This document shows positions 1 to 17,787 of a DNA stretch of 64,000 nt, piece after piece. Below the pieces are notes generated by a model, which saw only the letters and a program-made list of their open reading frames with translations, was not told the origin of the DNA and did no database searches. Source of the DNA: Kalymmatonema hyalinum WJT4-NPBG1 (GTDB taxonomy: Bacteria > Cyanobacteriota > Cyanobacteriia > Cyanobacteriales > Nostocaceae); NCBI GenBank assembly GCA_019359075.1, contig JAHHIB010000022.1:16546-80545 (forward strand). The letters run 5' to 3'. A program made the translations under genes and the position numbers. Position 1 is the first letter of the stretch. Every line of letters begins with the position of its first letter.

Positions 1-115
1 TGGACTTGCGGGTCAAGCCACGACTTCTGTTCACAGGGGCATGGTGCTATCTCATCCCTCCACTCACTCCGAAGCGCTGTTTTTGTTTGCGCTTCAAGTG
101 TTGGCGATATATGTT

Positions 116-395
116 TTATATCAGTCGTCTCAAACGAGGGCAGCGTTAGTGCCTGGATAGAATTTATTGGATTGATTAGATTTGTACTCAAAATTGAAAA
201 CCCTCACCCTTTAGGCATTTGAGGACTTAAAAAGATTTTTTCTGGGTAGGGGTACTAGAATTTTTGGGTTGGGGTTCGAGTATTTATGGAAATGGGGACA
301 AGTATTCATGTACTCAGAGCAAACTCAATCCCAGTAAGGATTTGAGCAAAATTTTAGCTTTTTTTTAGCTTTTCTAACTTGTACTCAAAGGCTGA
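116..395 (+). repeat. Left arm of a diverged inverted repeat with iterons (partner about 2575-2863)
   Basis: TTATATCAG (116), TTATTGGATTGATTA (164), TGTACTCA (183, 309, 380) and GGGTAGGGGTACTAG (244) recur in the same order in the reverse complement of 2575-2863, with identical spacing over the first three blocks. Confidence 0.8.
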
Positions 396-2182: not shown

Positions 2183-2574
2183 TCATTGCTTGATTAAATA
2201 AGCGCGCAAAAGTCAATTGCTATGAAAATTAAACCACAGATGGACACAGATGGACACAGATAATTAACTAGTGTTTATTTGTGTTTATCTGTGGTTATAA
2301 ATATCAAATACAGACTTTTGCAAAAAATATCTTACTATGCATTTAATGCATAGTATTCTTGCAATTTATTCATATGAAACGGTCAATATGCCTGTCGCAA
2401 AGGATAAAATAGGTATAACAGTTAAGCAAACTACAACTATAAATATACAAAATAGTATCTATACTTACAGACAAAAACTGTTAGGCAAAATAGCTCGGCT
2501 TGTCTTTTCTTAATTGTAGGAATACAATAATAAATAGTAACTCGATATACAGAATTTTTGGTTTTCATCTCGTT

Positions 2575-2863
2575 CGCCTGTTGTTTGAGTACAAGTGAAA
2601 AGTTGTTAATTTATGCAAAAATATCTTGCCTAAATCGCATCAAAGTCTTACAGGCAAGTGAATTGATATTGAGTACACAAATACTTACCCCCCTCCCCCA
2701 TAAATTCCAGTACCCCGGTCCTGAAAATACTAGTACCCCTACCCCAATAGAAATTTTAAATTTGCGTTATATCAAGGTTTAGGGCTGGTGAGTACAGCCT
2801 TAATCAATCCAATAAATCCAATCGGCGTCGGATGTAAGCCGTCTTTGCAAACACCTGATATAA
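2575..2863 (-). repeat. Right arm of the inverted repeat; upstream region of nifP
   Basis: TGAGTACA boxes at 2586, 2670, 2789; AAATACT/AAATTCC cores at 2679, 2702, 2725 (23-bp period). Confidence 0.8.
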
Positions 2864-2888: not shown

Positions 2889-3665
2889 TTGAAAAAACCA
2901 GTACCGATGCAACAGCCATTCGACCACATGAGGAATTCAAAGATTGCAAAAATGTTGGGTGATTATTCCAACCTGTTTTTTGCAATGCTTTCTGGCATTT
3001 CTTTTGAGCCAGTATTGACTGATTTTCGCATCATATTTGAACGAGATCCAGCAGCATGCCATTGGCTGGAGGTGCTGCTTTGTTACCCTGGATTGCACGC
3101 ACTATGTTTGCATCGCATTGCTCATTGGTTGCACCGACGTGGAGTGGCTTTTATCCCCCGCTTTATTTCTCACTTGGGACGGTTTTTTACAGGAATTGAA
3201 ATTCATCCAGGTGCAGAGATTGGCAAAGGCGTATTTATTGACCACGGTATGGGCGTTGTGATTGGCGAAACCGCTATTGTGGGAGACTACACACTTATTT
3301 ACCAGGATGTCACCCTTGGTGGAACTGGAAAAGAAAGTGGTAAGCGCCATCCTACCTTGGGCAAAAATGTCGTTGTGGGAGCAGGTGCGAAAGTCTTAGG
3401 CAATATTGAGATTGGCGATCGCGTCCGCATCGGTGCAGGTTCGATTGTTTTGCGAAATGTCCCCGACTATTGCACTGTTGTGGGAATCCCGGGGCGGATT
3501 ATTTCCTGCAAACAGGGCGAACAAGTTTCTCCCTTAGAACACGGAAAACTACCTGATTTAGAAGCTGAAGTGTTTCGCTGTTTGCAAGAACGTATTGAGC
3601 AACTCGAACAAAAGCTGCAAACCCTTACAAGTCAAACAAAAGAACTGGTGACAAAGGAACGTTAA
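2889..3665 (+). CDS. nifP: Serine O-acetyltransferase (NifP/CysE type)
   Basis: Left-handed beta-helix hexapeptides ([26 protein letters not shown]...[15 protein letters not shown]); located upstream of nifV. Confidence 0.88.
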
Positions 3666-4580: not shown

Positions 4581-4870
4581 TTGATACAAAATTCTTGTTT
4601 GATGCCATACAGATGGAACAAGAATTATCAATTATAAATAATGAAGGATGAATTATGAATAGTGATATTTTTGATGAGAACTCAGAACATAGAATTCATA
4701 ATTAGTGAATATGCCTACGAATTCATCCCAGGGATTTGACAACGAAAGTGTGATTCATCAACCTGTAAATTTCTTACGGTTTTCAATTGGGTGCAATACA
4801 TCAAAGAATTAACGAACCGCAAATGGACAAAGCATTGGACGCAGATGTAGACGCCTGAAAGGTGGTGAGA

Positions 4871-4907
4871 CAGCGCTGCAGGAGGGTTTCCCTCCGTAGG
4901 CGACTGC
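4871..4907 (+). repeat. Dispersed palindromic repeat (CAGCGCTGCAGGAGGGTTTCCCTCCGTAGGCGACTG)
   Basis: Near-identical units at 59321-59362 and (variant) 43770-43811. Confidence 0.8.
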
Positions 4908-5131
4908 GTAAGCGCAAGCGCACGCCAAGGGCGAACGCGCAGCGTGTCCGAAGGACATACCCGAAGGGCTTCCCGCAGGGTACTTGTACTTGATCCGGAT
5001 GATAACAGCTATAGTTGCTGTGCATTCTGGCTCAACACCCAATCGCCAAAAAACCATTTTGAGTTCTTACCGTAGGAGTTCTGAGTTCTTTCTTCGTCAT
5101 CATTCATCATTATCCAAGAGGTTTTTACAAG

Positions 5132-6268
5132 ATGAATCAAGTCTTAATAAATGACACAACACTGCGCGACGGCGAACAAGCAGCAGGAGTTGCCTTCAAC
5201 TTAGAAGAGAAAGTTGCGATCGCCAAATTTCTCGATGCGATCGGCGTTCATGAAATAGAAGTCGGTATTCCGGCGATGGGTAAGGAAGAAACACGAGCGA
5301 TATCAGCAATTGCTGAGGCGGGTTTGCAAGCCAAACTGCTTGGCTGGAACCGCGCGGTGATTTCTGATATCCAGGCTTCTATGGCTTGTGGTTTGAAGCG
5401 AGTGCATATTGCCATTCCCGTTTCTGGAATCCAAATTGCTGCCAAATTTCACGGTCAATGGCGGATAACTTTGCAACAACTCAAAGACAGTATTAGCTTC
5501 GCCGTTGATAAAGGTCTTTGGGTTGCTGTAGGAGGAGAAGATGCTTCTAGAGCTGATGAAAGCTTCCTCCTAGACGTAGCACAATATGCCCAAGAATGGG
5601 GTGCATCGCGGTTTCGCTTCTGTGACACAGTAGGCGTTCTTGACCCATTCAGCACATATGCGAAAGTAAGACGACTGGTGACGGCTTTGTTAATTCCCGT
5701 AGAGGTTCACACTCACAATGATTTTGGTCTAGCAACTGCCAATGCCCTTGCTGGTATCAAAGGTGGAGCTTTATCGGTGAATACAACGGTGAATGGGCTG
5801 GGTGAAAGAGCGGGAAATGCAGCTTTAGAAGAAGTTGTCATGGCTCTCAAACGTATCTACGGCGTTAATGTGGGTCTTGACACTCCTCGTTTATTAGAAT
5901 TGTCTCGACTTGTCGCAGCAGCATCAGGGAGCAATGTTCCGCCTTGGAAGGCAATTGTGGGTGAAAATACCTTTGCTCACGAAGCAGGTATTCATGCTCA
6001 CGGCGTACTGCAAAACCCCATGACTTACGAACCGTTTGCTCCTGAAGAGGTAGGGTGGGAACGACGTTTGGTTGTGGGTAAGCATTCTGGTAGGCATTTG
6101 TTGTCTAGTGTGCTACAGCAGCACGGCATTTTTTTGAATTCGCAAGAAACTCAATCTGTTTTGGAGGTGGTACGACAAGAGTCGGTAGAGAAAAAACGTA
6201 GCTTAAGCGTACAGGAACTATTGAATTTGGTACGAGAACAACAGAGGTATTCTCATGCGATCAGATGA
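5132..6268 (+). CDS. nifV: Homocitrate synthase NifV
   Basis: [33 protein letters not shown]; followed by nifZ and nifT. Confidence 0.95.
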
Positions 6269-6539
6269 ATTAGAGCTAGATCAGCAACCCGCCTTTAACA
6301 TCGGTGATAAAGTCCGACTCCGCAAAATGATCAAGAACGATGGTACTTTTCCCGGTCAAGAGATTGGGGTCATCTTGGCGAAAAAGGGAGATATCGGCTA
6401 CGTAGCTAGTATAGGCACATATTTACAAAGATCCTATATTTATGCTGTGCATTTTTTGCATACTGGATTTGTCGTAGGTTGTGTCAAAAAAGAATTAGAA
6501 CTTGTTGAGAAGGAACAAGAGGTTGTTGAGGAAGCCTAG
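6255..6539 (+). CDS. nifZ: Nitrogen fixation protein NifZ
   Basis: [24 protein letters not shown]...[23 protein letters not shown]; overlaps the nifV end. Confidence 0.92.
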
Positions 6540-6618
6540 CAAACTTCTTTTCCTGAACAGAAATTAAGACATTTCACCAATACATTAATATCACTACTAG
6601 GAAGCGGGAAAACTAGAG

Positions 6619-6822
6619 ATGAAAGTTATGCTGCGTCATAATGCTGCTGGAACTTTGATTGCTTACGTTGCGAAGAAAGACCTTGAAGAAGAAGTTGTTA
6701 AACAAACGGAAGGAGCAGAAGGCAAGATTTTTACTTTAGCAAATGGTTGGGAATTAGAATTTTCTAATTTGCCAGATCCGCTACAGTTACCGCAGACTTA
6801 TGAGGCTAAACGTCTCTCGTAA
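6619..6822 (+). CDS. nifT: Putative nitrogen fixation protein NifT/FixU
   Basis: MKVMLRHNAAGTLIAYVAKKDLEEEVV...LANGWELEFSNLPDPLQLPQTYEAKRL. Confidence 0.92.
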   Translation: MKVMLRHNAAGTLIAYVAKKDLEEEVVKQTEGAEGKIFTLANGWELEFSNLPDPLQLPQTYEAKRLS

Positions 6823-7062
6823 CTCAACGCTTGTCTCAATTACACTTTTTTTATCAAGACTGTTCTTAGTCATTCGTGAGCCAGCGCAACCAAGTTGGTT
6901 TCCAACTGGGCGGCGACTGGCGTTCACCGTTCGGCAAAGCCGTGGCGTCAGCCATAGGTGTGCCGAAGGCATACCCGAAGGGTCTTTTGGAAATGCAAAT
7001 GACTCATGACAAAGGACGATCCATATGAAAAATTTACGAAAAACTTTACGAATTTAAATAAC

Positions 7063-7617
7063 ATGAGTCATCATTACCTAAAATTATCTGAATTTAACCT
7101 TGAGGGACAGTTTGTTGGCTTTGTAGGTGATACCCCAGGGAAATTTAAATACCTGCGATTGGCATTAGAATCCGAGGATCTGGAAATTAAAATCCCTAAG
7201 GAGTTGCGTCAATTTCTGAGCATATCCTTAGTTCCTGGTGAGCAAATTCGTGTCTTTGGTATTAGTAAGTTAGACACACACACAGGCGAAATCAAACTAA
7301 AAGCTTTTGGGGTGACACCAATTGGTGTTTGTCCAAATCAAGAAATCCCTCTTCAACAACGAAAGTCTCTTCCCAAAGCTAAGATTTTAGTCTGTCAAAA
7401 ATCTGGTTGCATAAAGCGGGGTGGAAAAGCGCTATTGTCAGAATTAGAAAAGATGTTGTATGAGCATGGTTTGTCTGACCAAGTTATCATTGAGCAAACT
7501 GGCTGTTTCAAATGTTGTAAAAGCGCACCCAATTATATTTTGCAAATTGGGACAAAAGAATATAAAAAGATTCATCCAGAGGCGATCGTATCTTTGTTAG
7601 AAAGTTACTTGAGTTAA
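7063..7617 (+). CDS. (2Fe-2S) ferredoxin / thioredoxin-like [2Fe-2S] domain protein
   Basis: VCQKSGCIKRGG...EQTGCFKCCKSAPN (CX4C...CX2C-type cysteines); internal ATG at 7063 preferred over 7006. Confidence 0.8.
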   Translation: MSHHYLKLSEFNLEGQFVGFVGDTPGKFKYLRLALESEDLEIKIPKELRQFLSISLVPGEQIRVFGISKLDTHTGEIKLKAFGVTPIGVCPNQEIPLQQRKSLPKAKILVCQKSGCIKRGGKALLSELEKMLYEHGLSDQVIIEQTGCFKCCKSAPNYILQIGTKEYKKIHPEAIVSLLESYLS

Positions 7618-8911: not shown

Positions 8912-11900
8912 TCATAAATCATTTAGGATTGCTATAGAATGAGTTGACACAGTTTGGGCGATCGCCTCAATCAAGACTTCTGGATCAATTGGTTTGGGAA
9001 TATGTAACTGAAATCCAGCGGCAAGTGCCTGCTGCTGATCGATTTCTCCTGCATAAGCAGTCAGAGCAATAGCTCTTATCTGACTATTTCTCTCGCTTTG
9101 CATTGCCCGAATTTGTCGCATGAGCATATAGCCGTCCATGTCGGGCATCCCAATGTCGCTTACTAGGACATCAAACTTGGTCTGTGATATGACTTGGAGT
9201 GCTTCCATCGCAGAAACCGCGGTTATGACGCTCCCTCCAGCCTGCTCCAAAATGAAGGCAATTAACTCTCTTGTGTCCACCTCATCATCGACAACAAGAA
9301 TTCTCATTCCATTGAGGGGTAATTTGTCAAGCGTGGTATATGAAGATTTATATTCGTTTTTTATACTTTTTTCCGGCTTTAAAAGCGGTAAGCTGACAGT
9401 GAAAGTTGCTCCTTGCCCAACACCAGCACTTTCCGCGCGAACAGTACCACCATGCAGCTCGACTAAGTGACGGACGATCGCCAGCCCTAACCCGAGTCCA
9501 CCAAACTTGCGTGTTGTCGCGCCATCTTCCTGGCGGAAATACTCAAACACGTGTGGTAAAAAATCAGGATCAATCCCTTTGCCTGTATCGCTAACAGTAA
9601 TTTGAGCGAGTGAGCCAACGCGCTGCAGCAGAATTTCGACCCGTCCGCCTGAAAGTGTGAATTTGACGGCGTTGGTGAGCAGATTCCAAATCACTTGCTG
9701 TAACCGAGCAGAATCACCTAAAACCTGCCCGATATTTGGATCAAGCACTGTCTGAATTTGAATTGACTTGGCTTGCGCTGCCAACTGCACTGTTTCAATA
9801 GCTGCCGAAATCGTTGATGCCAAATTAACAGGATCCATATTGAAGCTGAGTTTGCCACGCAGAATGCGAGAGACATCTAACAAATCTTCAATCAGTTGCG
9901 CTTGAAGTTTGGCATTGCGTTCAATTGTTTGTAGCGCCTGAGTCGTTTTTGTAGCATCTAACTTGCCGGTGAGGAGCAACTTAGACCAACCGAGGATAGG
10001 ATTGAGGGGCGATCGCAACTCGTGAGACAGCACCGCTAAAAATTCATCTTTTATACGGTTAGCGGTTTCAGCTTCGGCACGGGCGACTTGCTCTTGCTCT
10101 AGTAGCCGCTGGCGCTGTTGGTCGAGTTGTTTTTGATTTTCTATATCTGTTGCTGTACCAAACCACTTAATCACCTGACCCTGCTCATTTTTCAGCGGTA
10201 CGGCTTGATGCAAATGCCAGCGATATTCTCCATCTGCTCCTCGCATCCGACCTTCTGCTCGATAGCTGGTACCCGCTTGTTGAGCTGCTGCCCAATTCTG
10301 CCTGAGAGTGGGTATATCATCAGGATGGACGATGGCTTGCCAGCCCGCGGCTTGAGCTTGGGTAAGGGTTAATCCAGTAAAATCTGACCAACGTTGATTG
10401 ACATCAATAAGCATTCCATCTGTGTTGGCAGTCCACACCAGTTGCGGAATCGATTCTGCTAAATACCGATAGCGTTCTTCACTTTGCCGCAGGGTTGCTT
10501 CGGTTTGTTTGCGATCACTGATGTCGAGTGCGGTTCCAGTGAACCCAATCGGTCGTCGGGCTATCCCCTCTCCCTCGAATTGCGCCTGCCCGTTGGCTGA
10601 CACCCACCGCTCGGTTCCATCGGAGCACCTGATACGATAATCAATCTCGTAAGTGCCCGACAATTTGGGGTCAAGCGCACTGCTAACAGCACTCGCTACG
10701 CGTGTCCGGTCGTCAGGGTGTATCCGCTCCATCACTTTAGGAAGGGGAATCTTGAATGCATCATCCGGCTCACCCCAAATCTCGCGCATCCGCTTGTCGA
10801 TCTCAACGAGATTTGTGTCGGGGTCGTAACGCCAAGTCCCAAGCCGACCTACCTTAATGGCGAGCTGCGCGCGCTCCTCGCTCTCCCGCAACGCTGACTC
10901 TGCCTGCTGTTGTTCAGTAATGTCCTGAAAAATCAGCACGATCGCATTGACGCTGCCAGATTCATCGTAAAGGGGAGCCGCCGAAATGCTGAGGATTACC
11001 GTTGAACCATCACGCTTACAGCGATAGGTTTCCACGCCAGCAAAAATTTCTCCCTTTGCCACCGCAGCTCTAACCTGACGGCATTCTTCCCGTTTCTCTT
11101 CTGGAACAATCGGAATGGGTTGACCCAAGACCTCGGTTTCACTCCAACCAAATAGCCGCTCTGTCGCCGGATTCCAAAGCTGTACGGTCATGTCGGGTTT
11201 AATGACAACTATAGGCAGTGGGGAGGCTTTAATGAGGGTGCTTAGGGTTTGTAAGCTTTTTTGGAGTTCTTGTTGCGCTTGTTTGCGCTCGCTAATGTCG
11301 GCAATGACACCAATAGCACGGATTGGCTGTCCGGCTTCGTCACGGATGATATCACCTCTGGAGATGACCCAGTGCAGTGAGCCATCCGACCAAACGATAC
11401 GGTACTCTACATCGTATTCACCCTCACTAGCCACCGCTTTTTGAAAGACCTGTTCCACTTGATCGCGATCCTCTGGATATAAGCACTCGCGCCACTCCTC
11501 TCGGTTCTCAGGAGTGCTCGACAGTCCAAAAATTTGATTGAGCGCTTCATCGAACTGCACTGCTCCTGTGCAGAGGTCTACCTGCCAAGTGCCCATTTTT
11601 GCGGCTCGAAGGGCTAGCCTCAGTCGTGCTTCCCGTTCGCGCAATGCAATTTCTGCCTGTTTGCGATCAGTGATATCCCGGAAGAAAATGTCCAGACCAT
11701 CCTCGTGAGGATAGGCGTGAATCTCAAGCCACATATCGTATGTGGGTGGTTGGTAATAGTGATGCTCAAAGTGGACGGGAATCTGTTGTGCCATCGCCCG
11801 CCGATACTGGCGCTCTACGTTCGTCCCTACCGACACAGACCACTCCTCCCAGTGGGTCTTTCCAATGACTTCTGTCCGAGGTTTGCCGTTAAGTCGCTCG

Positions 11901-12394
11901 GCTTCTGCATTCTGGTAAATGATCCGCCAGTCACGGTCGAGAGCAACAAACGCATCACTTGTGCTTTCTAAAGTACGTGTTACCTGCCGATTGGCTTGCC
12001 GCACTGCCCGCAAGCTTGCCTTGGTTTTCCGGTTGGCAACCTGCAACTGTGTGCAGAGTAATGCGATTAAAAATGATACCAGTGAAAACGCAATCAATTG
12101 CACCAAGCGATTCGCACTAGTGATGGCAAATGAGTGGATCGGCTCAATAAGGAAGTAGAGGCTGTAGCCAACTCCCAGAGCGATCGCCAGCAATCCCGGT
12201 CCCATTCCGCCATACCAAGCACTGACTGCAACAGCCGCGAAAAACAGCGGAAATGTCACCGGATTTAGCAGCGGCAGAAGCAGTTGCGTTAACAGGAGGG
12301 CGACTGTCGCTGCCAGAATCGCAACCCCATAGGATAGCAACCGAGAGCGGATAAAGATTTCCTTGTCTACAGTCCCCGTCCTCTCATGAATCAT
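8912..12394 (-). CDS. Hybrid sensor histidine kinase/response regulator (DUF4118-like membrane domain, multiple PAS, HisKA, HATPase, REC)
   Basis: Four TM-like segments near the N-terminus, repeated PAS/PAC, LAVLSHELRSPLNPILG H-box, C-terminal ILVVDDEVDTREL...VSDIGMPDMDG REC; ATG at 12394 gives a 4-bp ATGA overlap with the upstream kinase. Confidence 0.93.
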   Translation of the reverse strand: MIHERTGTVDKEIFIRSRLLSYGVAILAATVALLLTQLLLPLLNPVTFPLFFAAVAVSAWYGGMGPGLLAIALGVGYSLYFLIEPIHSFAITSANRLVQLIAFSLVSFLIALLCTQLQVANRKTKASLRAVRQANRQVTRTLESTSDAFVALDRDWRIIYQNAEAERLNGKPRTEVIGKTHWEEWSVSVGTNVERQYRRAMAQQIPVHFEHHYYQPPTYDMWLEIHAYPHEDGLDIFFRDITDRKQAEIALREREARLRLALRAAKMGTWQVDLCTGAVQFDEALNQIFGLSSTPENREEWRECLYPEDRDQVEQVFQKAVASEGEYDVEYRIVWSDGSLHWVISRGDIIRDEAGQPIRAIGVIADISERKQAQQELQKSLQTLSTLIKASPLPIVVIKPDMTVQLWNPATERLFGWSETEVLGQPIPIVPEEKREECRQVRAAVAKGEIFAGVETYRCKRDGSTVILSISAAPLYDESGSVNAIVLIFQDITEQQQAESALRESEERAQLAIKVGRLGTWRYDPDTNLVEIDKRMREIWGEPDDAFKIPLPKVMERIHPDDRTRVASAVSSALDPKLSGTYEIDYRIRCSDGTERWVSANGQAQFEGEGIARRPIGFTGTALDISDRKQTEATLRQSEERYRYLAESIPQLVWTANTDGMLIDVNQRWSDFTGLTLTQAQAAGWQAIVHPDDIPTLRQNWAAAQQAGTSYRAEGRMRGADGEYRWHLHQAVPLKNEQGQVIKWFGTATDIENQKQLDQQRQRLLEQEQVARAEAETANRIKDEFLAVLSHELRSPLNPILGWSKLLLTGKLDATKTTQALQTIERNAKLQAQLIEDLLDVSRILRGKLSFNMDPVNLASTISAAIETVQLAAQAKSIQIQTVLDPNIGQVLGDSARLQQVIWNLLTNAVKFTLSGGRVEILLQRVGSLAQITVSDTGKGIDPDFLPHVFEYFRQEDGATTRKFGGLGLGLAIVRHLVELHGGTVRAESAGVGQGATFTVSLPLLKPEKSIKNEYKSSYTTLDKLPLNGMRILVVDDEVDTRELIAFILEQAGGSVITAVSAMEALQVISQTKFDVLVSDIGMPDMDGYMLMRQIRAMQSERNSQIRAIALTAYAGEIDQQQALAAGFQLHIPKPIDPEVLIEAIAQTVSTHSIAILNDL

Positions 12395-15300
12395 TTGCAC
12401 TCATCCGACAGTATAGTAGAATGAGTTGACACAATTTGGGCGATCGCCTCAATTAAGACTTCTGGATCAATTGGTTTGGGAATATGTAACTGAAATCCAG
12501 CGGTGATCGCCTGCTGCTGATTGATTTCTCCTGCATAAGCAGTCAGAGCGATCGCTGGAATTGCCCCCCCTTGTTCTGGTGGCATACCTCTTAAGAAGCG
12601 CAACAATGTATAGCCGTCCATTTCAGGCATTGCAATATCTGCTAACAAAATATCGAACTGGGTTTGCTTGAGTCTTTGCAGCGCTTCGGTTGCAGAAGAC
12701 ACAGAGATAACACTAGCACCAGCTTGCTCTAAAACGAAAGTGATTAATTCCAAATTGTCTGCATCATCATCAACAGCTAAGATTTGAATTCCTTGCAAAG
12801 TGAGTGCGTCTTGCATAAATGCCTCTTCCCCAATTGCTAAAGTTGGTGTCGGTATAAGGGGAAGCCTAACTGTAAAGGTAGCACCCTGTCCTTCCCCTGG
12901 ACTTTCAGCTTGGATGGTTCCCCCATGTAGCTCAACAATGTGGCGTGCGATCGCCAGCCCCAACCCCAAACCGCCAAAAGTGCGAGTGATACTGCTATCT
13001 GCTTGACGGAAGTAATCGAAGACATAGGGCAAAAAATCAGGATTGATGCCTTTGCCTGTATCACTAACAACAATCTGTGCTTGCTTCTCAACCTGCTTGA
13101 GATGGATTTCCACACGCCCACCATTAGGAGTAAATTTAATAGCGTTAGAAAGCAAATTCCAAATGACTTGCTGTAAACGAGTTGCATCGCCTAAAACATT
13201 ACCCACATCCGATTCAAAATGAGTTTGAATTTGAATCGCTTTAGCTTGGGCTGCCAAATCTACTGTTTTGAGCGCTGCTTCAATTGTTGATTCTAAATTA
13301 ACAGGACAAGTATTTAAACTAAGCTTGCCTTGCAAAATCCGAGAAATATTGAGTAAATCTTCAATCAGTTGGACTTGTAGCTTGGCATTACGCTCAATGG
13401 TTTCTAGAGCAGCTGCTGTCTTGCTAGCATTGAGTTTGCCTTCTCGCAACAATTTCGTCCAACCTAAAATTGGGTTCATAGGTGTTCTCAGTTCATGTGA
13501 GAGAACAGCAAGAAATTCATCTTTTGTGCGGTTAGCTGCTGCACTACGCGCCGCTTCGCGAACGGCTGCGGCTAGTGCCTGTTGCTCGGCTTCATATAAT
13601 TGAGCACGGACTATAGCTTGAGCGCACTGTTGAGCTAAGGCAAGGATAAACGCCCGGTCATCGTCGCTTAAAGGTGAGAATTGAGTAAAGTTGAGAGATA
13701 TTCCTCCAACTGCTCGACCCTCTACCATCAGAGGTAACGAAATCCAACTAGCGTAATTACACTGGGCGTAGTATTCTGCCAAGTGAGGATAACGAGCCAC
13801 TCGTGCTTCGGTCGATTCTTCCCAAATCGGTTCTCCAGTTCTTACTGCTTCAGCCAGTGGTACTTGTGTTGTGATTGGAAAGCAACGCCATTCTCCTATA
13901 TCTTGTGGATACCCAACAGAATAGACGATTTCAAGCTCCGTACCATTTTTATTCAGAATTGCCATCATAGCGGAGCAAGCATTCAAAACGGCAGTGCTTT
14001 GCTCAACAATCACTTTAGCAACTTGAGGGGGAGTCAGCGATTCAGAGAGTGCTGCTGTGACCGACAAAAGACGTGCATTACGGTCAGCAGTTTGCTCTGC
14101 TTGCTGGCGTGAGAGTTGAGCTTGTTGATAGAGTTGAGCATTGGCGATCGCCATAGCCGCCCGGTCTGCCAAATTTTGAAATAAAGTTTGGTCATTGGTA
14201 TTGTGAGGTTCTCCAGGATGATTGCGAGTCAGGCTCAACACTCCAATCGCTTGTCCTCGTACCTTAAGTGGCACAAGCAAGGTGCTGTAAACTTTAAAGC
14301 GCTCCAAGTAGCGCTGATACTCTGGTTTGATAACGGCACGTAACTCCTCCTGTGATGTCACTGGCATCAACAGGGCTTCTCCTGTTTGCATCACTTGCCC
14401 CCCAATTCCCTCATCAACACGGCGAGGGTAACTGCTTAACAGTTCATTCACAAACTGTCTTACCTGTGGATCAACATGGTAAACAGAGACAGGCTCAAGC
14501 CACTGCCCATCAAGAGACAGCAGACTCAATACACAAACATCACCTGTATATTCACTAACAAGTCGGGTGATAGTGTTCAAAACCGTTTGCAAATCTAAAC
14601 TCGCCGCTGCAAACGTTTGCGATGCTTGAGCGAGAAAACGCTCTTGTTGCTCAACTCGCTTCAACTCAGTAACATCACGGGCATAACCGATGATAGATTC
14701 GACCGTCCCATCGGCTGCAAACTCGGGTACAAAACGCGATTGATACCAACGGGTACCATTAAGCGCTTCAAAGTTAAACTCTATCGAACGGCTTTGCCCA
14801 GTTGTAAATATCTGTTGCCAGTTTTCATGCCAGAGTCTGCAACTCTCTGGTGGCATACCTAAGTCAATATTGGTTTTGCCAATGAATTCTTCTGCTGGAA
14901 TACCAGTCACCTGTTCGATAGCAGGACTGACATAAATATGGCGAAATTCTGAATCGATTCGACTGATGATATCTGGGGAATTTTCAGCTAAAGTCTTGAA
15001 CCTTTGTTCTCGACGACGGAGTTCCGCTTCCATCTGTTTGCGATCGCTCACATCCTGCACAACTCCCAGCATACTCAGGACATCTCCTGAAACACTATAC
15101 TGAGCACGTCCTTTTGCTGCAACCCATCGTTCGGCTCCATTGGCATGAATCACCCGGTATTCAATGTCATAATCACGCTCGTGGCGGATTGCTTGCTCAA
15201 CCGCTAGACGAGCCTGCTCTCGATCTTCGTGATGAAGTAGATCGCGCATATGCGTCCAAGTCATATAAGGACCAGACGGAATGCCAAAAATTTCGGCTGC

Positions 15301-17787
15301 TCGTTGAGAAAATGTGACAATATCTGTTGCTGCATCCCAACTCCAATCTCCCATTTTCGCAGCTGCCAAAGCCAGACTTAATCGTTGAGCATTTGCTGCC
15401 AGCGCTTGTTCTGTTTGTTTGCGGGCGCTTATATCAATCGATACCCCTACCATCCGTACAGGACCATCAGCATCTTTGTATACTCGTCCCTGGCTGCGGA
15501 GCCATGTTGTTGTTCCATCCGGACCAATAACGCGGTATTCCTGAGCGTAGTCTTCTTCTCCAGCCAGTGCCCGCTCATAGGCTTCGATGACACTTTGCCG
15601 CTCTTCAGAGTGGACGACAGCAAAAAAGTCTTCTCCCGTTCCTTCTTGAATTCCCCAAACCTCAAGGGCATTCGGAGAACACAGAACATGATTTGCCCTC
15701 AAATCCATATCCCAAGCGATCGTGCCTGTTCCGGATAAGGCAAGCTGTAGCCGTTCCTCGGTTTGTCGCAGGTTCTCCTCAATTTGCTTCAACTTAGTGA
15801 CATCTTGAAACATTCCAATGCAAACGGCTGAATGTCCGTACATAGGTGGTAACGTTTCTCCCCAGCACAGAGTTGAGCGAATACCACCAGGTGTATGCCA
15901 GTTCATCTCATAGTTTTCTAATCTTTCTCCTCTTGCTAGGAGAACCGCAGGCATTCGCTCAGTCGGAATGCGCTGACCTGCTGCATCTGTGCAGTAGTAT
16001 GCGTCCGGGTATTCTTCAAGGGATTTGTTTTTGGGTAAGTCACCACCTGCCAGTTCATTGGCAATTCGATTGGCAAAAGTTACCTTTGCTGTTCCCGGTT
16101 CGATGAACACCATAGGCGTCGGCATTAAATCAAGCACCGCTTCCAACCATTTCTGCTGGTTCTCTAATGCCTCGGCTTGTTGCCGCAGAGCTTCTTCTGC
16201 TTGTTTACGGGCGCTAATATCATGTGAGATGCCAATCACTTGCTGGGGTAACCCATCATGTGTACGGGTGAAAATAAGATCCCGACTCCAAAGCCAACGC
16301 CATTCTCCATTGGCATGCTGCATCCGATACTCTCGTTCAATAATTTCACCGTCATGAGCTTGATGAAAGCGTTGTATATGAGTTCCAAGCGTGGCAAGAT
16401 CCTCAGGATGCATGAGTTGGGAAAACAGTTGGCTTCCCATTGCCTGAATTTGTTCTAAGGTATAACCCAGGACTTCGCCAATCTGACGATTCGCATAGAC
16501 ATTGCGCTGCTCGATTAAATCATAGATGTACAACACACCGGGCGTAGCATCGGCAACCTGTTCGATGAATCGCTGGCTTTGGTGAAGTTGCAACTCTACC
16601 TGTTTGCGGGAGCCAATATCTTGAAACACCATCACGCAAGTTGGTGGTAGCTCGTGCATTGCGGGTAAAGTATCTGCATAAACCAGCAGCGAGTAAACAC
16701 CTGTTGGAGTATGCCAATTCAACTCTGCCCCATGAATTTTTTCGCCTCGTGCCACCCGGACTGCGGGAAGTTGGTCGGGCGGAATAAGTTGCCCTGTAGC
16801 ATCGGTGCAGGAAAATTCTGCATCATAGACTCCAGCAGGGCGATTATCAGGAATTTTACCTCCTGCCATCTCATTTGCCGCCTGATTGGAGAAGGTGAAG
16901 CGAGCCGTTTGGGGTTCAATAAATACCAGTGGAATGGGCAGCAGATTGAGTACCGCCTCCAGCCATTGGCGTTGACTAGCTTGAGCTTGTGCGTTTTGCT
17001 GGAGTAGTTGTTCCAATTTCTTGCGCTCAGTAATGTCCCGAACAAACAGAGAAAGTCCTTCAGCAGACGGGTAGGCATGAACTTCCCCCCAGGTGTCCAA
17101 AGGAGCGTAATAATCCTCGAAGACAAGAGCAGTTTGTTCATCTACCGCTTTGTGCAGCATGCGTTCAATGTTGGTGCCGCATAAAAGAGGAAACACATCC
17201 CAGACGCGCTGACCAATGAGTTCGTTTCTGCTCTTCTTTAGTAACCGTACGGCTGCCTCATTAACGTAGGTGTAGCGCCAGTCGCGATCGTAGGCAATGA
17301 AACCATCGGTGATACTTTCGAGAATGTGAATAACTTCGCGATCGCCCCCTGGGCAGTTCGCTGTGGGAGCATCGCCTTGTTGCGCTGCTTGGGCTGGCTG
17401 AAGTGGAGTGAAATCAAGCTGGCGCGACTGCAAAGCTTCAATGGTTCGTTGCAGTTCAACAATTTGCACTTGCAGTTGTGCATTGGCTTGAGACAGTTCG
17501 GACGTTCGTTCTGCCACAAGTCCTTCTAAGTCGTGATCAGCTCTTTGTTGCGTTTCCTCTGCTTGATGACAAGCGTCCAGCTTGCCGTTGCTACTAAGAT
17601 TGTTGAAAGACAAATCAGATTGCAAGGTACGAGCATAGCGTTCCACCAACTCAGAACGGGAAATACCACGTTCACGCGCCTCCTGCTTTAGAATCTGCCA
17701 AGCTGTCTTAGTTAGCGATAAGTTGACTGCCTGCTTCGATTCTTTTTCCCAACTATAGATAAATTTTCCCGTTCTGTCACGCTTCAT
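12391..17787 (-). CDS. Large hybrid sensor histidine kinase (RHH-like N-terminus, multiple PAS, GAF domains, HisKA, HATPase, REC)
   Basis: Repeated PAS/PAC motifs, GAF-like blocks, LAVLSHELRTPMNPILG H-box, REC ILAVDDDADNLELI...LADIAMPEMDGY. Confidence 0.93.
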   Translation of the reverse strand: MKRDRTGKFIYSWEKESKQAVNLSLTKTAWQILKQEARERGISRSELVERYARTLQSDLSFNNLSSNGKLDACHQAEETQQRADHDLEGLVAERTSELSQANAQLQVQIVELQRTIEALQSRQLDFTPLQPAQAAQQGDAPTANCPGGDREVIHILESITDGFIAYDRDWRYTYVNEAAVRLLKKSRNELIGQRVWDVFPLLCGTNIERMLHKAVDEQTALVFEDYYAPLDTWGEVHAYPSAEGLSLFVRDITERKKLEQLLQQNAQAQASQRQWLEAVLNLLPIPLVFIEPQTARFTFSNQAANEMAGGKIPDNRPAGVYDAEFSCTDATGQLIPPDQLPAVRVARGEKIHGAELNWHTPTGVYSLLVYADTLPAMHELPPTCVMVFQDIGSRKQVELQLHQSQRFIEQVADATPGVLYIYDLIEQRNVYANRQIGEVLGYTLEQIQAMGSQLFSQLMHPEDLATLGTHIQRFHQAHDGEIIEREYRMQHANGEWRWLWSRDLIFTRTHDGLPQQVIGISHDISARKQAEEALRQQAEALENQQKWLEAVLDLMPTPMVFIEPGTAKVTFANRIANELAGGDLPKNKSLEEYPDAYYCTDAAGQRIPTERMPAVLLARGERLENYEMNWHTPGGIRSTLCWGETLPPMYGHSAVCIGMFQDVTKLKQIEENLRQTEERLQLALSGTGTIAWDMDLRANHVLCSPNALEVWGIQEGTGEDFFAVVHSEERQSVIEAYERALAGEEDYAQEYRVIGPDGTTTWLRSQGRVYKDADGPVRMVGVSIDISARKQTEQALAANAQRLSLALAAAKMGDWSWDAATDIVTFSQRAAEIFGIPSGPYMTWTHMRDLLHHEDREQARLAVEQAIRHERDYDIEYRVIHANGAERWVAAKGRAQYSVSGDVLSMLGVVQDVSDRKQMEAELRRREQRFKTLAENSPDIISRIDSEFRHIYVSPAIEQVTGIPAEEFIGKTNIDLGMPPESCRLWHENWQQIFTTGQSRSIEFNFEALNGTRWYQSRFVPEFAADGTVESIIGYARDVTELKRVEQQERFLAQASQTFAAASLDLQTVLNTITRLVSEYTGDVCVLSLLSLDGQWLEPVSVYHVDPQVRQFVNELLSSYPRRVDEGIGGQVMQTGEALLMPVTSQEELRAVIKPEYQRYLERFKVYSTLLVPLKVRGQAIGVLSLTRNHPGEPHNTNDQTLFQNLADRAAMAIANAQLYQQAQLSRQQAEQTADRNARLLSVTAALSESLTPPQVAKVIVEQSTAVLNACSAMMAILNKNGTELEIVYSVGYPQDIGEWRCFPITTQVPLAEAVRTGEPIWEESTEARVARYPHLAEYYAQCNYASWISLPLMVEGRAVGGISLNFTQFSPLSDDDRAFILALAQQCAQAIVRAQLYEAEQQALAAAVREAARSAAANRTKDEFLAVLSHELRTPMNPILGWTKLLREGKLNASKTAAALETIERNAKLQVQLIEDLLNISRILQGKLSLNTCPVNLESTIEAALKTVDLAAQAKAIQIQTHFESDVGNVLGDATRLQQVIWNLLSNAIKFTPNGGRVEIHLKQVEKQAQIVVSDTGKGINPDFLPYVFDYFRQADSSITRTFGGLGLGLAIARHIVELHGGTIQAESPGEGQGATFTVRLPLIPTPTLAIGEEAFMQDALTLQGIQILAVDDDADNLELITFVLEQAGASVISVSSATEALQRLKQTQFDILLADIAMPEMDGYTLLRFLRGMPPEQGGAIPAIALTAYAGEINQQQAITAGFQLHIPKPIDPEVLIEAIAQIVSTHSTILSDECK

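Follow-up and report, generated by a model that had tools for sequence, protein, structure and literature searches.

A three-iteron module at the nifP and nifB promoters of Kalymmatonema hyalinum: a probable CnfR-type activator site related to plasmid replication-control loci

CnfR is required for the switch-on of nif genes and has been used for nitrogenase expression in cyanobacteria that do not fix nitrogen, which is a step toward nitrogen-fixing crops. CnfR (PatB) is known as the activator of these genes; in L. boryana, it activates the nifB and nifP promoters, and a truncated nifB promoter is reported to carry motifs I to IX "for recognition by CnfR" (PMC5943405). The A. variabilis nifB promoter has an extended -10 element and no -35 element, and nifB1 expression falls by half when either the first or the second of the conserved upstream sites (iterons or TGAGTACA sites) is lost (PMC8510180). 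A TGAGTATA motif that is present three times overlaps the TGAGTACA sites (PMC4284476). The dependence of nif genes on CnfR and the need for conserved upstream sites have thus already been published by others. The locus examined here resembled these cis-elements (motifs I to IX in L. boryana and CS1 to CS3 in A. variabilis) in lying upstream of nifB and nifP, in having three TGAGTA[C/T]A-type motifs and an extended -10 element without a -35 element, and in the presence of CnfR in the genome. The cis-element texts that we searched described no array of three 22-bp iterons, no spacing quanta of one helical turn, no third operon, and no kinship to plasmids; Tsujimoto 2016 and Vernon 2017 may hold some of these.

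The DNA that we analyzed, which is referred to as the window, was a stretch of 64,000 nucleotides. A first-pass annotation had placed three conserved cores upstream of nifP, and their positions were accurate: AAATACT at 2679-2685, AAATTCC at 2702-2708, and AAATACT at 2725-2731, in steps of 23 bp. On the minus strand, each core was preceded by a G-tract, and two of these read GGGGTACTnG. The second array that it had reported, at 257, 279, and 301 with a 22-bp period, was also found as described. The iteron array was only one part of a larger module, at nifP and nifB alike. The features of the nifP module were as follows.

2586-2593, plus strand: TGAGTACA site 1, distal
2670-2677, plus strand: TGAGTACA site 2, a flank site immediately ahead of iteron 1
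2679-2693, plus strand: iteron 1, AAATACTTACCCCCC in gene orientation, ranked 3 of about 128,000 positions by an independent matrix, conserved in nifP orthologues
2702-2716, plus strand: iteron 2, AAATTCCAGTACCCC, conserved in nifP orthologues
2725-2739, plus strand: iteron 3, AAATACTAGTACCCC, ranked 1 by the independent matrix, conserved in nifP orthologues
2789-2796, plus strand: TGAGTACA site 3, proximal
2802-2823, plus strand: AATCAATCCAATAAATCCAATC, short direct repeats 3' of site 3, conserved in the nifB, nifP, and third-operon modules and with plasmid counterparts
2856-2863, plus strand: TGATATAA, the extended -10 element of nifP; iteron 3 begins 131 bp upstream of it
2889-3665, plus strand: nifP, a serine acetyltransferase of the CysE family (NCBIfam TIGR01172) with a second possible ATG start at 2907; the array serves this gene

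In the window, nifP was followed by nifV and nifT. The nifB gene runs leftward on the minus strand, and its ATG was 154 bp outside the left edge of the window. This made the left arm (235-316) the nifB upstream region. Therefore, nifP and nifB carried mirror copies of one module, and positions 2670-2753 at nifP were the mirror image of 235-316 at nifB. The first-pass annotation was right about the iterons, and it overlooked the identity of the left arm as the nifB promoter, the TGAGTACA flanks and extended -10 elements, the likely protein CnfR, and the NtcA-form sites. The nifB module contained the following features.

380-387, minus strand: TGAGTACA site 1
309-316, minus strand: TGAGTACA site 2
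249-307, minus strand: array of three iterons (307-293, 285-271, and 263-249) with a 22-bp period
183-190, minus strand: TGAGTACA site 3
156-177, minus strand: AATCAATCCAATAAATTCTATC repeats
116-123, minus strand: extended -10 element TGATATAA of nifB, 140 bp from iteron 3

In gene orientation, the iterons read AAATACTnGTACCCC, and the order common to nifP and nifB was TGAGTACA, AATACT..G..CCC, AAATACTnGnACCCC, and AAATACTAGTACCCC, at 22 or 23 bp. The complete module consisted of a TGAGTACA site, a second TGAGTACA site with the three iterons, a third TGAGTACA site with AATnAATCCAATAAATTCTATC, and the extended -10 element CTGATATAA. The TGAGTA[C/T]A-type motifs began at 2586, 2670, and 2789 in the nifP module and at 380, 309, and 183 in the nifB module, and three TGAGTACA copies per region was the commonest state. 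The nifB leader 3' of the -10 element was strongly conserved (AGTGAGTGGAGGGATGAGATAGCACCATGCCC; window positions 1-60 and the adjoining locus L009, 16400-16600), and an Rfam search over the nifB-nifP region found no RNA family match. NifB of strain NIES-4073 was 96% identical to NifB of our genome, which belongs to a Scytonema-type heterocystous cyanobacterium. The gap between the nifB and nifP promoters contained a quinone-oxidoreductase gene (1162-2106) and was about 1.2 kb in several other lineages. Dispersed repeats with many genomic copies were present at 844-1060, 2195-2326, and 4860-4970. To the left of the window (L009:8476-9918), the NifD frame ended in DYSG and then diverged, as would be expected if nifD were interrupted at the usual site of the nifD excision element. 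Elsewhere in the window, ORFs of 1162 and 1798 aa at 8912-12400 and 12391-17787, which overlapped by a few bases, appeared by eye to encode putative multi-sensor hybrid histidine kinases.

The arrays were evaluated with a weight matrix built from 50 training iterons, all of them from non-heterocystous lineages. The six iterons of the window took the top six ranks out of about 128,000 positions. As triplets, the two arrays scored 57 and 53 bits. No triplet in 200 Markov-shuffled windows exceeded 9.6 bits, and the remainder of the real window reached at most 1.6 bits. The exact string TGAGTACANNAATACT occurred twice in the 8.4-Mb genome, and both occurrences were in the nifB and nifP arrays. A chance origin of the window arrays was excluded.

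The cores and their phase were kept upstream of both nifP and nifB orthologues across diazotrophic cyanobacteria, non-heterocystous diazotrophs included. The first-pass annotation had named a lack of such conservation as the finding that would overturn its reading, and the reading withstood this check. The linkers were variable, and the iteron cores and their spacing were constant. We measured the spacing of the best iteron pair in 129 regions upstream of nifB or nifP: it was 22 bp in 110 of them and 23 bp in 16. Most lineages had a 22-bp period, and the 23-bp period at nifP was a lineage variant. Downstream of the array, the CTGATATAA-type extended -10 element was at a fixed distance in 143 promoters, and the GAGTAC of site 3 was always 65-68 bp ahead of it. 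Of the 143 promoters, 142 had iteron 3 either 128-134 bp (about 131 bp) or 139-143 bp (about 141 bp) from the -10 element, none fell at 135-138 bp, and one outlier was at 105 bp. When these two spacing classes were mapped onto IQ-TREE phylogenies, they required at least six changes on the NifB tree and at least four on the NifP tree, or at least ten switches, so the spacing had changed repeatedly by about one helical turn. This is what a face-of-helix constraint predicts, and it supported the earlier suggestion that the iterons are read from one face of the DNA. Cooperative protein binding to the iterons, which had been proposed on the same grounds, would agree with this pattern.

The R1 model, a sequence model of the array, was then used to compare the distribution of the array with that of cnfR in 293 genomes of the order, with a presence threshold of E<=1e-4. 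The array was present in 94 of the 103 genomes that contained cnfR (it was not found at this threshold in the other 9) versus 8 of the 190 genomes that did not. Set against nifB in the same genomes and at the same threshold, the figure was 92 of 94. In our own genome, R1 produced three strong matches (E values of 2e-19, 9e-18, and 2e-14), and the next match had an E value of 0.014. The cnfR gene of this genome was intact and was located on a different contig than the window (G000:C173:86680-88263); it was reached through the neighborhood of the third R1 site. The N-terminal cysteines of its 2[4Fe-4S] domain were conserved, and its C terminus contained an XRE helix-turn-helix (HTH). The window modules lay upstream of nifB and nifP, had an extended -10 element, and shared a genome with an intact CnfR that had both domains.

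The central part of CnfR was examined with an AlphaFold model built from 49 homologues (pLDDT of 87; an earlier model from 11 sequences was poor, with a pLDDT of 53). RctB is the replication initiator of Vibrio chromosome 2, and the best match to a solved structure in a Foldseek search of the PDB was RctB domains 2-3 (5tbf; E value of 6.4e-5, probability of 1.00). This match of the CnfR center was one of fold only, spanning two domains with an rmsd of 8.6 and a TM-score to the target of 0.45. Through it, the model showed a tandem winged-helix initiator fold of the RctB/Rep type. Profile searches with CnfR against PDB sequences and PHROGs returned ferredoxin and HTH matches only; the PDB search returned no RctB, and no sequence homology to known initiators was found. 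The nif loci resembled RctB/ori2 and iteron plasmids in their head-to-tail iterons and in the initiator-like tandem fold at the center of the protein. In contrast to RctB/ori2, the nif array is predicted to drive nif transcription at a fixed -10 distance, and CnfR has no sequence similarity to RctB.

Beyond nifB and nifP, our genome contained only one further copy of the module, which corresponded to the third R1 match.

G000:C135:164675-164756 (L173:4676-4757): third full CnfR-type module, R1 E value of 2e-14

This module preceded an uncharacterized operon of small proteins, which had no Pfam or NCBIfam match, and a divergent cysK-like gene adjoined it. It was kept in most of the Nostocaceae genomes examined. 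In a non-heterocystous family (f18; loci L189 and L190), a homologous module had cnfR on one side and, on the other, the gene for a small membrane protein followed by coxBAC2; in the same family, coxB2 was preceded by a homologue of the first protein of the third operon. Other copies were found outside this setting. One complete genome without cnfR or nifB contained a nif-like module consisting of an array, TGAGTACA, and TCTGATATAA (L284, G103:C1:4757052-4757128), which may be a relic or may belong to another regulator. In a genome in which cnfR and nifB were undetected, an array was found upstream of a modA/nifV region (L204, G162:C17:50941-51020). An array-like match in genome G032 was rejected as an array because it was coding sequence.

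A plasmid search identified homologues of the CnfR center on 46 cyanobacterial plasmids. The plasmid homologues that we examined had no Fe-S domain, save one true CnfR on a Pseudanabaena plasmid. The latter protein, which included the Fe-S domain, was encoded at 5758-7392 on plasmid ABRG53d of Pseudanabaena ABRG5-3 (L269), and bchE and psbA were on the same plasmid. The genes for the plasmid CnfR relatives adjoined replication genes (CyRepA1, DUF3854, DUF3987, or PriCT_2) or were near dnaB. Significant triple repeats were detected in 15 of 22 gaps between these genes and the replication genes; the periods were 22 bp in nine, 21 bp in three, 23 bp in one, and longer in two. Triple iterons of 21-23 bp were thus present in 13 of the 22 plasmid gaps versus none of 38 independent control gaps. 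(We took 39 control gaps from the same stretches, and the sole match was an array already counted, picked up again in an overlapping gap, leaving 38.) The plasmid arrays had a matched flank site on both sides, the site differing by plasmid, and none of 20,000 permutations gave as high a degree of matching. They were then followed by short repeats, in the same order as at nif. Three tandem 21-23-bp iterons with a matched site on each side was also the arrangement of the nif module. The nif modules did not have a CnfR-family gene on one side and a replication gene on the other; they preceded nifB and nifP, with cnfR on another contig.

In a phylogenetic tree, the CnfR clade (support of 100) was sister (support of 98) to plasmid proteins associated with CTAGAACCCC iterons, those of pGLO7428.02 and pSYN7502.01. 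On pGLO7428.02, the iterons were TCTAGAACCCC, 23 bp apart, and an extended -10 element followed at 136 bp. On pSYN7502.01, the iterons were ACACTAGAACCCC with irregular spacing, an extended -10 element was located at 134 bp, and TGATTACA was located about 67 bp before the -10 element. When the tree was rooted at its midpoint, CnfR and its sister group fell inside a larger plasmid family; the samples of plasmids and of proteins in the tree were modest, and the direction of descent is not proven because the root is a midpoint. We also performed a blind check with the nif-trained R1 model, which produced matches between an Fe-S-free paralogue and a replication gene in five genomes (G102, G150, G175, G233, and G250). 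A true cnfR was absent from four of the five; G102 had one as well. The G150 locus contained TTGAGTACA, three 22-bp iterons, and then TTTGAGTACACTCCTAATTAG, in front of a CyRepA-like gene.

The presence of Fe-S-free CnfR relatives beside plasmid replication genes, usually with the same module in the gap, is new here. Our literature search returned no paper tying CnfR to plasmid replication, which does not prove that none exists, and two CyRepA/CyRepX papers had no mention of an XRE regulator or iterons. The plasmid arrays adjoined CnfR relatives and plasmid replication genes, a further likeness to iteron replication loci. The CyRepA1-family loci were like the nif loci in having a flank-iteron-flank module, placed upstream of CyRepA1/DUF3854 genes with a CnfR-family gene adjoining, and were unlike them in that the plasmid regulators lacked the N-terminal 2[4Fe-4S] domain of CnfR.

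The NtcA box (GTA-N8-TAC) was absent from inside the nifP array, as the first-pass annotation had stated. Two conserved forms of it were located further upstream at nifP, by about 130 and 210 bp.

2537-2550, plus strand: NtcA-form GTA-N8-TAC, conserved about 350 bp before nifP
2455-2468, plus strand: another NtcA-form GTA-N8-TAC, 82 bp upstream of the first and kept in many Nostocales

At least one NtcA core was found in 38 of 49 nifP regions (7.1 expected), while nifB regions were at the chance rate (10 of 84; 10.1 expected). This enrichment suggests that NtcA may provide input at nifP besides CnfR.

One rival idea is that a different nitrogen or heterocyst regulator (NtcA, HetR, or a sigma-factor partner) recognizes the iterons and that CnfR acts on other sequences, such as the TGAGTACA sites alone, via its C-terminal XRE HTH. 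The presence of that HTH in CnfR, the overlap of the published TGAGTATA motif with the TGAGTACA sites, and the conserved NtcA-form sites near nifP are in line with this idea. We nonetheless regard it as rather unlikely: the NtcA core is absent from the array and occurs at nifB at the chance rate noted above, the array is found in non-heterocystous diazotrophs and its presence follows that of cnfR, and the plasmid arrays adjoin CnfR-family genes in genomes without nif. Another idea is that the plasmid and nif arrays are alike by convergence only, given that 22 bp is two helical turns. The iteron cores of distant plasmids are indeed unlike the nif core. The associated proteins, however, are homologous, the sister-clade plasmids share the CTAGAACCCC core as well as the distance to the -10 element (134 and 136 bp), the CyRepA-like gene at G150 is preceded by TGAGTACA, three 22-bp iterons, TGAGTACA, and TAATTAG, and flank pairs match within each locus to a degree that no permutation reached. 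We judge convergence improbable.

The iteron layout, which is that of plasmid replication loci, and the initiator fold match of CnfR could also mean that the array is a present or recent replication origin rather than an enhancer. This is very improbable, since the module is followed at a fixed distance by a conserved extended -10 element and nif genes, and since there are several chromosomal copies, none of them beside a replication gene in our genome. Two further readings have next to no probability. The arrays form inverted repeats around the oxidoreductase gene at 1162-2106, with dispersed repeats between them, and could be the terminal repeats of a mobile element with a 2.4-kb oxidoreductase segment; this was rejected because arrays persist at both genes in genomes in which nifB and nifP are far apart. 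Several minus-strand G-runs in the nifP array raised the question of a G-quadruplex, which was rejected because only one of 129 arrays contained the canonical four-run motif, and the two window arrays did not.

Our analysis established how the module is built, that it is conserved and helically phased, that it co-occurs with CnfR, and that both the protein and the module have plasmid kin. It is likely, in our judgment, that the array forms the central part of an activator site of the CnfR (PatB) type and that the module and protein are kin to plasmid replication control. In the mechanism that we infer, CnfR would contact the iterons directly and cooperatively. Several CnfR molecules would line up on the three tandem 22- or 23-bp iterons, filling them via the initiator-like center and/or the XRE domain, and the flanking TGAGTACA sites would anchor the multimers as end caps. 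With the helix face fixed, the activating surface of CnfR could contact RNA polymerase at the extended -10 element, where there is no evident -35 element. The 2[4Fe-4S] ferredoxin domain would signal low oxygen and thereby gate the switch-on of nifP and nifB.

The nif array is probably part of an ancient switch with exact spacing for cyanobacterial nitrogen-fixation genes, and the occurrence of the same module beside CnfR relatives at plasmid replication genes suggests that the nif activator was borrowed from plasmid replication control. CnfR probably arose by the addition of a ferredoxin-like sensor to such a plasmid regulator, which was then recruited to nif promoters, a direction of evolution that we infer. 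We lean, with some reserve, toward the more specific reading that CnfR/PatB is a domesticated plasmid replication-control protein with an added Fe-S oxygen or redox sensor, and that the nif promoters are captured plasmid replication promoters. Under this reading, the captured layout would comprise a flank, three 22-bp iterons, a flank, repeats, and an extended -10 element, with the helix-face spacing kept across the diazotrophic lineages examined.

The anatomy described here yields a compact rule for these promoters: three 22-bp iterons, matched flanks, and 131 or 141 bp to the -10 element. It also names a third candidate target operon of CnfR, which most of the heterocystous genomes that we examined have kept. 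The plasmid kinship points to an unexpected origin of the regulator, brings forward new candidates for replication regulators of cyanobacterial plasmids, and leads to a model in which oxygen sensing came about through the addition of a ferredoxin domain.
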